Below are positions 34,583 through 39,476 of a stretch of 39,596 bases of DNA, piece by piece. Both the position numbers and the translations under genes were made by a program. Below the pieces are notes generated by a model that had not been told where the DNA came from, did no database searches, and worked only from the letters and a program-made list of their open reading frames with translations. Source of the DNA: a bacterium (GTDB lineage: Bacteria > UBA9089 > JASEIO01); contig JASEIO010000011.1 of NCBI GenBank assembly GCA_030017475.1, positions 1 through 39,596 of the forward strand. The letters run 5' to 3'. How positions within the stretch are numbered: position 1 is the stretch's first letter; each line of letters starts with the position of its first letter.

Positions 34583-34616
34583 TGCACCCTGATTCCTTCA
34601 CCCTCCTCGGGGTTTC

Positions 34617-34783
34617 TATATGGGCAGGTCTTCTGACTTATGGATCATCCTACTCAAGGGCACCTTCCCACCTCATCCTTTCTTAGAAAGGGCTAGGCAG
34701 TGGCATTTTTGCCCTTTTTCGTCCCCAATCACAGCTGCGGGACAGCAAACGGAATCTCACCGTTTTCCCTTAAAACCCATATG
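34617..34783 (-). promoter_or_regulatory. Cobalamin (AdoCbl) riboswitch
   Basis: Conserved blocks on the minus strand in order: GGGAAAACGGTGAGATTCCG, GCTGTCCCGCAGCTGTGA, ATGCCACTG, GGTGGGAAGG and AGTCAGAAGACCTGCC (the B12 box region). P1 is closed by CATATGGG with CCCATATA. It controls the cob/btu operon on the same strand. Confidence 0.96.
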
Positions 34784-34804
34784 TCATATTCGATTGTAGT
34801 TTCT

Positions 34805-37958: not shown

Positions 37959-38330
37959 TTAAGAGGTGAAATTTGGTTGGCAAAAAAGGCAAGAGGATTG
38001 GTTATACTCAATCTTGCCAAATTGGGAAGGGGGTTTTCCTGCCAAAACCATATCTACTACATAGCGCCTACCACATCGAGTACAGGTAGAATAAACAAAC
38101 TCAAAATCTGTATGTTCCACTATCATATATTTACCACTATATATCTTACCTAACTCAATATATCTCTTAACATCAGGATGCAAATGATAGCCTAAGATTC
38201 TATCAATGAATTCAGCTTCTGATGCTGAAGTCTCGTTTTTGTAAATTCCATCTCCTCTATCTTCATCTATTTCAATCTTTGAGAGATATTTTAAAGAACA
38301 TGCTGACCACTCCGTTTGAATCCCTTCCAT
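37959..38330 (-). CDS. Unknown zinc-ribbon protein under a sigma-28-type promoter
   Basis: A 123-residue protein not recognised. The N-terminal half is acidic (KYLSKIEIDEDRGDGIYKNE) with a helix EAEFIDRILGYHLHPDVKRY. The C-terminal third has cysteine pairs CTRCGRRYVVD and CLFC about 25 residues apart, a zinc ribbon. ATG 38330 follows a strong AAGGAGG. Upstream are a terminator hairpin (38360-38397) and a consensus sigma-28 promoter (38461-38488), so it probably belongs to the flagellar or chemotaxis regulon. TTTACCTC in the leader is the exact complement of GAGGTAAA at its ribosome binding site. Confidence 0.75.
   Translation of the reverse strand: MEGIQTEWSACSLKYLSKIEIDEDRGDGIYKNETSASEAEFIDRILGYHLHPDVKRYIELGKIYSGKYMIVEHTDFEFVYSTCTRCGRRYVVDMVLAGKPPSQFGKIEYNQSSCLFCQPNFTS
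37982..38018 (-). terminator. Terminator-like hairpin inside the 3' end of the zinc-ribbon gene
   Basis: Minus-strand GGCAAGA pairs with TCTTGCC (7 bp, plus inner TTG/CAA), followed by six T, all within the last codons of the gene. It would end transcription before acyP, which has its own promoter. Confidence 0.55.
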
Positions 38331-38359
38331 GGGTATTTACCTCCTTGTGTCCCTCTATT

Positions 38360-38397
38360 AAAAAAGGCTTATCATAAAATGGTATTATGATAAGCCT
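38360..38397 (-). terminator. Strong terminator hairpin downstream of the sigma-28 promoter
   Basis: A perfect 13-bp stem AGGCTTATCATAA/TTATGATAAGCCT with 7-nt loop, followed on the minus strand by T-rich sequence (the A65 pairs, then five more T). On the plus strand it is followed by CTTTT, so it is partly bidirectional. It ends the pcm-mth938 transcript and also lies in the leader of the next gene. Confidence 0.85.
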
Positions 38398-38460
38398 CTT
38401 TTGTTCTATATTCGTTTCACTCCTTTGAGGTAAAACCATCCTTGTCCCTCCCACTATCTA

Positions 38461-38488
38461 ATATCGGCAAAAACTCTAAAAAACTTTA
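38461..38488 (-). promoter_or_regulatory. Sigma-28 (FliA/SigD)-type promoter, consensus boxes
   Basis: Minus-strand TAAAGTTT, 12 nt, GCCGATAT: both boxes match the consensus at every base, and the spacing equals that at 7951-7978. It begins two bases after the stop of the Mth938-like gene and points at the unknown zinc-ribbon gene. Confidence 0.8.
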
Positions 38489-38489
38489 C

Positions 38490-38825
38490 TTAACATGTAA
38501 GATGTAGGGCTGCTATTACATCTTTATTCTTTGATAGATCATTAAATTCCTTTACCGCCTTATCAGTTTTCTCAATGATTACCCGGATACCCCTTTTTTG
38601 AAGCAGATCCTTTACCTCTTGAGATACATCTACTATTCCGTATGCACCAGTACCAAAGATTACGACCTCAGGTTTTTCTTTTAATATCTCTTCAATATCT
38701 CTTGTAACTACTCTATGTCCTGTGACCCTCCACCAGGATTTAACCCCATCTCGGAAGATTCTAACATCATGACTATAAGTTTTACCATCAATCTTTATCT
38801 GCCCAAAGTTATAATCTTCTATCAT
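38490..38825 (-). CDS. Mth938-like domain protein
   Basis: A 111-residue protein with the Mth938/NDUFAF3 pattern: YNFGQIKIDGKTYSHDVRIF, then PEVVIFGTGAYGIVDVSQEV and LLQKRGIRVIIEKTDKAVKE. The bacterial role is unknown; the human homologue aids complex I assembly. It follows pcm by 12 nt. ATG 38825 follows AGGTAGAT, with GGGGTGAGG further upstream. Confidence 0.85.
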   Translation of the reverse strand: MIEDYNFGQIKIDGKTYSHDVRIFRDGVKSWWRVTGHRVVTRDIEEILKEKPEVVIFGTGAYGIVDVSQEVKDLLQKRGIRVIIEKTDKAVKEFNDLSKNKDVIAALHLTC

Positions 38826-38837
38826 CTACCTCACCCC

Positions 38838-39476
38838 CTAATGCCTGCCTGCCATCAATACAAATGCACAGCCTGTAATGGAGGTAGTTTCTATTTTGCC
38901 CCTTTCCTTTTTGATCAAGGTTAATATATGAGGATACCTACCACCCAAGGGTAAAACCATTTGTCCTGGGTCTTTTAATTGGTCAATCAATGGATCTGGT
39001 ATCTTTAAACAGGTACAGGTAACTATAATTCCATCATATGGAGAAAATTCGGGCCAACCATAATATCCATCAGAAATCTTAAATCTTATATTTTTATAAC
39101 CAAGGCTTCCTAAAATTCCCTTAGCTTGTCTTCCTAATCGTTCAATTATCTCTACCGTATAAACCTCCCGAGAAAGTTCAGCCAATACAGCAGTTTGATA
39201 ACCCGATCCAGTACCTATCTCCAGTACCTTTTCATCCCCTTTTAAATCAAGTAAAGTAGTCATTAAAGCCACCATATATGGCTGAGAGATTGTTTGATTA
39301 CAATCAATTGGTAAAGGACGATCCGAATAAGCTACTCCTTGTTCAGTACGCCTAACAAACCTATGCCTTTCTACCTTTCTCATAACATCCAACACCCTTT
39401 TATCTTTAATAGCCCTTATCCCTCCATTCTCAATCTGTGTTCTTACCATATCTTCTCTCGCTTTCACATAATCCAT
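38838..39476 (-). CDS. pcm: Protein-L-isoaspartate O-methyltransferase
   Basis: Repairs isoaspartyl residues using SAM. DRPLPIDCNQTISQPYMVAL is the family's substrate-site signature, KVLEIGTGSGYQTAVLAEL is SAM motif I, and GQMVLPLGGRYPH the late motif. 212 aa is normal. ATG 39476 follows GGGGTAG. Promoter at 39495-39523. Confidence 0.95.
   Translation of the reverse strand: MDYVKAREDMVRTQIENGGIRAIKDKRVLDVMRKVERHRFVRRTEQGVAYSDRPLPIDCNQTISQPYMVALMTTLLDLKGDEKVLEIGTGSGYQTAVLAELSREVYTVEIIERLGRQAKGILGSLGYKNIRFKISDGYYGWPEFSPYDGIIVTCTCLKIPDPLIDQLKDPGQMVLPLGGRYPHILTLIKKERGKIETTSITGCAFVLMAGRH

Follow-up and report, generated by a model that had tools for sequence, protein, structure and literature searches.

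Sigma-28 promoter-terminator units and a predicted small RNA family with an anti-Shine-Dalgarno loop in Desantisbacteria and spirochaetes

What does a sigma-28-type promoter do when an intrinsic terminator stands between it and the gene behind it? The question is raised by a locus on the minus strand of a Desantisbacteria contig, within a window of 39,596 nucleotides. The initial annotation had described a promoter, a terminator hairpin and an 8-nt element complementary to the ribosome binding site (RBS) of a small zinc-ribbon-like gene, and all three were found at the positions that it gave, on that strand (Table 1). Elsewhere in the window a cobalamin riboswitch (34606-34795, minus) is located near genes of cobalamin biosynthesis and transport.

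Table 1. Features of the sigma-28 locus in the window, with the basis on which each was assigned.
Feature	Position	Strand	Basis
pcm, preceding the DUF498 gene	38838-39476	-	
DUF498 gene, upstream of the unit	38490..38825	-	Pfam
Sigma-28-type promoter TAAAGTTT-N12-GCCGATAT	38461..38488	-	pattern; comparison with flgM and fliS
Predicted sigma-28 transcript of about 95 nt, start near 38453	38357..38454	-	deduced from promoter and terminator positions
TGGGAGGG, likely RBS of the leader ORF and exact complement of the conserved sRNA loop	38446..38453	-	window scan, duplex energy
Possible leader ORF of 55 codons, beginning MVLPQRSETNIEQ	38272..38439	-	codon score
TTTACCTC, complementary to the RBS of the 123-aa gene	38427..38434	-	sequence, fold, shuffles
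Intrinsic terminator (13-bp stem, 7-nt loop, T-run)	38360..38397	-	sequence and fold
GAGGTAAA, RBS of the 123-aa gene	38336..38343	-	sequence
Orphan 123-aa gene with two CxxC pairs, zinc-ribbon-like	37959..38330	-	relative and Pfam searches

The assignment of the promoter to sigma-28 is well supported. It agrees with the sigma-28 (FliA) consensus (TAAA, a spacer of about 15-17 nt, and GCCGATAA/T), and the pattern TAAA-N15-17-GCCGATA occurs at 12 sites in the 1.64-Mb genome and at none in the reversed control. Late flagellar genes of this genome share the promoter type: an exact-pattern promoter precedes fliS (contig C100) and the same type, in the variant GTCGATAT, precedes flgM (contig C11), the two genes being what we take them to be from reading the translated sequences by eye. 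Although flgM and the promoters are present, the search of this genome, which is 98.5% complete, gave sub-threshold RpoD-like matches only and no FliA over the family cut-off; in the phylum, 16 of 19 genomes have a FliA that passes it. The search for further such promoters and their leaders, which had been suggested as a check, revealed that at least six of the 12 sites give a predicted short transcript followed by a terminator-like hairpin: the one in the window (contig C14), two on contig C15, and one each on C44, C56 and C67. The C44 unit precedes a gene with a DUF5610 domain and the C56 unit a gene that is presumably Maf-like. At several of the sigma-28 sites the promoter overlaps or adjoins the stop codon of the gene upstream, and in the window its TAAA begins one base past the stop codon of the DUF498 gene.

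A few other products of these promoters were observed. The unit on C67 (L016:1320-1500, minus) has a sigma-28 promoter, an apparently non-coding RNA of about 180 nt and a strong terminator, and is unrelated to the C-rich small RNAs described below. On contig C18 (L010) a 39-aa protein with two CxxC pairs lies directly behind a sigma-28 promoter and represents a second small zinc-ribbon-like product of the regulon. The idea that the GGA-rich leaders serve as sponges for CsrA was ruled out, since this genome has no CsrA.

Read most simply, the locus consists of a sigma-28 promoter-terminator unit that would produce an RNA of about 95 nt, with some read-through into the orphan gene. The hairpin is a strong intrinsic terminator, the 98-nt transcript folds at -28.8 kcal/mol (z = -5.1), and a hairpin that closes a short sigma-28 RNA at its 3' end explains the arrangement at least as well as does control of the gene by its leader, which the initial annotation had favored. 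In that proposal the leader acts on the zinc-ribbon gene at termination as well as at translation, through pairing and possibly with a ligand or a protein, and one workable version is that ribosomes on the leader ORF melt the hairpin and the RBS pairing and so allow expression. The leader-RBS match is unusual to some degree, as dinucleotide shuffling of the leader gave a match of 8 nt or more in 18 of 2000 cases (0.9%) and a duplex energy at least as good in 11 of 500, which is suggestive but not compelling for a feature chosen by eye. The combined structure has a good minimum free energy (MFE); in the MFE fold of the 145-nt leader, however, the terminator and the RBS-covering pairing coexist rather than alternate, so the mutually exclusive terminator and antiterminator of an attenuator or riboswitch are absent from the predicted fold, and a classical two-state attenuator is therefore not indicated. 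The leader ORF begins just before TTTACCTC, crosses the hairpin and enters the gene in a different frame, an overlap that would hinder initiation there. Its first 31 codons nevertheless score at the median of real genes, a value reached by 4.4% of out-of-frame stretches, and a translation-coupled leader stays among the rivals because its codon usage resembles that of real genes. Similarly, the C56 and C44 units have a hairpin ahead of a real gene. Leader-peptide attenuators share with this locus a short ORF and a terminator upstream of a gene, whereas the window leader has no predicted antiterminator exclusive with the terminator and no conservation. No Rfam family matched the leader above the gathering threshold. 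The 123-aa gene matched no Pfam family and had no relative in 60 genomes or in a wider collection of genome contigs, which leaves no covariation to draw on, and the proposed leader control, whether by pairing, ligand or protein, thus finds no backing in conservation. We regard it as unlikely. The accompanying suggestion that the gene is flagella-linked is no more than conjecture, given that the gene is an orphan and that relatives without flagellin also keep FliA and sigma-28-driven RNAs.

An equally unlikely explanation is that the hairpin is simply the terminator of a pcm-DUF498 operon, that the sigma-28 promoter sits by chance between it and the stop codon, and that the orphan gene is barely expressed or has its promoter elsewhere. 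The hairpin can be explained in this way because no other terminator was found between the DUF498 gene and the orphan gene, and the several sigma-28 promoters of the genome that overlap or abut an upstream stop codon would fit as well. Against it, a promoter so near to perfect would make a short RNA anyway, and no sigma-70-like promoter was seen immediately before the orphan gene from which it might be expressed.

The promoter-terminator reading of the window gains its context from contig C15 (L003:1246-1500, minus, genome G000), where two of the units form a tandem pair of predicted sigma-28-driven small RNAs (sRNAs). The two are paralogues whose stems differ while their loops are nearly the same (UUUUUCCCCUCCCAGUUUC and UUUCCUCUCCCAGUCUC). 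When they were used as BLAST queries against the 18 other genomes of the phylum, the same RNA recurred, every time behind a sigma-28-type promoter, and together with a covariance model (R1) the searches place the family in 11 of 19 Desantisbacteria genomes. Its members consist of a covarying hairpin with an invariant single-stranded CCCCUCCCAG loop, complementary to RBSs, and then a terminator. In an alignment of fourteen Desantisbacteria sequences, 19 of 30 pairs change on both sides, 92.4% of the cells are paired, a share that drops to 44.5% or less once the partners are slid, and the covariation score was reached in 0 of 500 shuffles. In its own genome R1 matches the two C15 RNAs only, and the window leader, having no R1 match, was rejected as a member. 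No Rfam match to the family was found above the gathering threshold and only chance-level matches at a low threshold, and a limited literature search found no description of it. Six of the sRNA-bearing genomes gave no flagellin match (G005, G009, G011, G013, G015, and G017); five of these have FliA above the cut-off and G013 has a sub-threshold match only. Other short sigma-28 units of the phylum look different. In G010 (L050), where the C-rich sRNA was not found, a sigma-28-type promoter is followed by two short ORFs, GTTTGGGAGGGGAGAG and a terminator-like hairpin, and in G003 (L042) a predicted sigma-28-driven short RNA carries another hairpin loop (CUUCCUAA) and a terminator.

The family extends to a second phylum. 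An exact scan of 84,980 species for the -10 element plus loop returned 33 loci, 24 of which are titled as spirochaetes, and the exact promoter-plus-loop pattern is present in about 23 spirochaete genomes. The spirochaete loci that were inspected follow the same design of promoter, loop hairpin and terminator, and twenty-two of the sequences share the invariant AGUUCCCCUCCCAGUUU. Their alignment contains 23 pairs, 14 of them changing on both sides, with a covariation score reached in 0 of 500 shuffles. In both phyla the sRNA always adjoins a sigma-28-type -10 element. Among the other matches of the exact scan, those in Poribacteria, Atribacteria and Nealsonbacteria look like coincidences within coding sequences, and the one titled 'Marinifilum' and a Desantisbacteria sRNA locus are one and the same DNA. 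By comparison of promoters, terminators and covariation in the two phyla, these predicted RNAs are a family.

Where might the invariant loop act? A complementary sequence occurs at, or close to, the beginning of flagellin, rsmH, nrdD, fliG and an AAA+ ATPase gene. In 42 genomes it was found within 9 nt of an ATG 45 times compared with 3 for the reversed pattern, although about 11 of the 45 have the letters expected of the antisense strand of the sRNA itself. A match at L218 is antisense to rpoC and was taken as chance, and three further matches are nearly letter-identical to it. The site recurs before nrdD and, in three spirochaetes, before the AAA+ ATPase gene, whereas fliG and a thioredoxin-like gene provide one case apiece. 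In the genome of the window, pairing with loop 1 places the flagellin RBS (CAGGGAGGGGTAAAAATG) among the best 0.25% of 60-nt stretches, and the rsmH start (CTGGGAGAGGAAATG) is a perfect 13-nt complement of loop 2, a pairing that ranks below 0.03% of the background; loop 2 differs from the consensus opposite the base at which the rsmH site carries A instead of G, as would be expected of a matched change. In all four f8 Desantisbacteria genomes, two of which have the sRNA, CTGGGAGGGGATAAGG stands about 100 nt before rsmH, while rsmH of f6 and f4 Desantisbacteria and of G004 and G010 is without the site. Between CTGGGAGGGGATAAGG and the likely rsmH start, the f8 genomes (L197, L199, L196, L200) have a hairpin-forming insert of about 70-90 nt, the sequence of which differs between genera. 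A scan of the genome of the window for near-complements of the loop, with mismatches allowed, gave no excess over the control, and any effect is therefore confined to few, strong sites. Full-length co-folding of sRNA1 with the leader or the targets is predicted to gain only about 7-8 kcal/mol, and the predicted co-folds with the leader and with rsmH do not use the loop. Flagellin leaders also differ with the presence of CsrA: those of the CsrA-bearing G008 and G001 (L070, L073) contain two GGGAGGA/AGGAGGA-like sites, and those of the CsrA-less G000 and G004 (L167, L075) contain CAGGGAGGGG, which is complementary to the core of the sRNA loop. The sRNA might replace CsrA.

The connection between this family and the RNA of the window is the weakest part of the overall explanation. 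At the 5' end of the leader, TGGGAGGG is exactly complementary to the core of the loop and has no second copy in the 39.6-kb window, yet the energy of its duplex with the loop puts it no higher than the best 2.6% of 60-nt stretches, which makes the leader a weak candidate for a target or sponge of the sRNA. That the window RNA acts as a sponge, its 5' TGGGAGGG capturing the anti-Shine-Dalgarno loop and relieving repression of the targets, is very unlikely: the exact 8-nt complement and the G-rich, loop-complementary stretches in the sigma-28 RNAs at C44, at C56 and in G010 would agree with it, but the pairing is of that modest rank and TGGGAGGG could equally be an ordinary RBS.

Several known systems resemble the family in part, the nearest being sRNAs of E. 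coli and Campylobacter, which work in a similar way yet are distinct RNAs. Alphaproteobacterial anti-Shine-Dalgarno sRNAs such as the cuckoo RNAs direct a C-rich loop against RBSs, are under alternative-sigma control and occur in tandem copies, all of which is shared by the family described here; their promoter type and phylum are different, and the present family has no Rfam match. In Campylobacter jejuni, the flagellar cascade likewise includes sRNAs: FlmE (CJnc230) carries a single-stranded anti-Shine-Dalgarno stretch, represses flgM and is RpoN-dependent, and FlmR (CJnc170) is FliA-dependent (PMC11187230). Both differ from the present family in sequence and phylum, and FlmE also in its RpoN dependence and its motif, CCUU rather than CCCCUCCCAG (PMC11187230). 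In E. coli, sigma-28-dependent sRNAs include UhpU, derived from the 3' UTR of a metabolic gene, and MotR and FliX, which connect flagella with growth genes, namely those of ribosomal proteins (PMC10578931). Sigma-28 control and short terminated RNAs are common to these and to the unit in the window, which has its own sigma-28 promoter and intrinsic terminator as the UTR-derived E. coli sRNAs do, and the origin of UhpU resembles the place of the unit behind DUF498. The Desantisbacteria and spirochaete sRNA differs in its fixed anti-Shine-Dalgarno loop, and the sequence comparison, made through Rfam, gave no match.

Taken together, we consider it reasonably probable that the genome carries at least six sigma-28 promoter-terminator units, the locus in the window among them, that the C15 pair belongs to a trans-acting sRNA family whose loop blocks RBSs, and that the window RNA is perhaps bound by it. 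The unit in the window would have been inserted directly behind the DUF498 gene. Sigma-28 RNA polymerase would start near 38453 and mostly stop at the hairpin, and a minority of transcripts would read through into the orphan gene, whose RBS can pair with the leader, so that translation would be weak. Meanwhile the sRNA loop most likely pairs with the G-rich RBSs of flagellin, rsmH and nrdD and blocks their translation while sigma-28 is active, a block that we infer because the target sites recur.

The family is undescribed, deeply conserved and equipped with an invariant targeting loop, and it adds two phyla to the post-transcriptional control by sigma-28-dependent sRNAs known from E. coli and Campylobacter. 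That it persists in lineages with FliA in which flagellin was not detected suggests that its function is not confined to flagella. A wider reading, which we offer as tentative and rather doubtful, is a conserved switch between swimming and growth in Desantisbacteria and spirochaetes, in which the sigma-28 sRNA would, while sigma-28 is active, repress nrdD, for the synthesis of DNA precursors, rsmH, at the start of the division cluster, and flagellin, and other sigma-28 leaders, including that of the window, would be targets or sponges. The recurring sites before nrdD and rsmH would allow a direct connection of motility with growth to be tested in culturable spirochaetes, provided that these carry the RNA.
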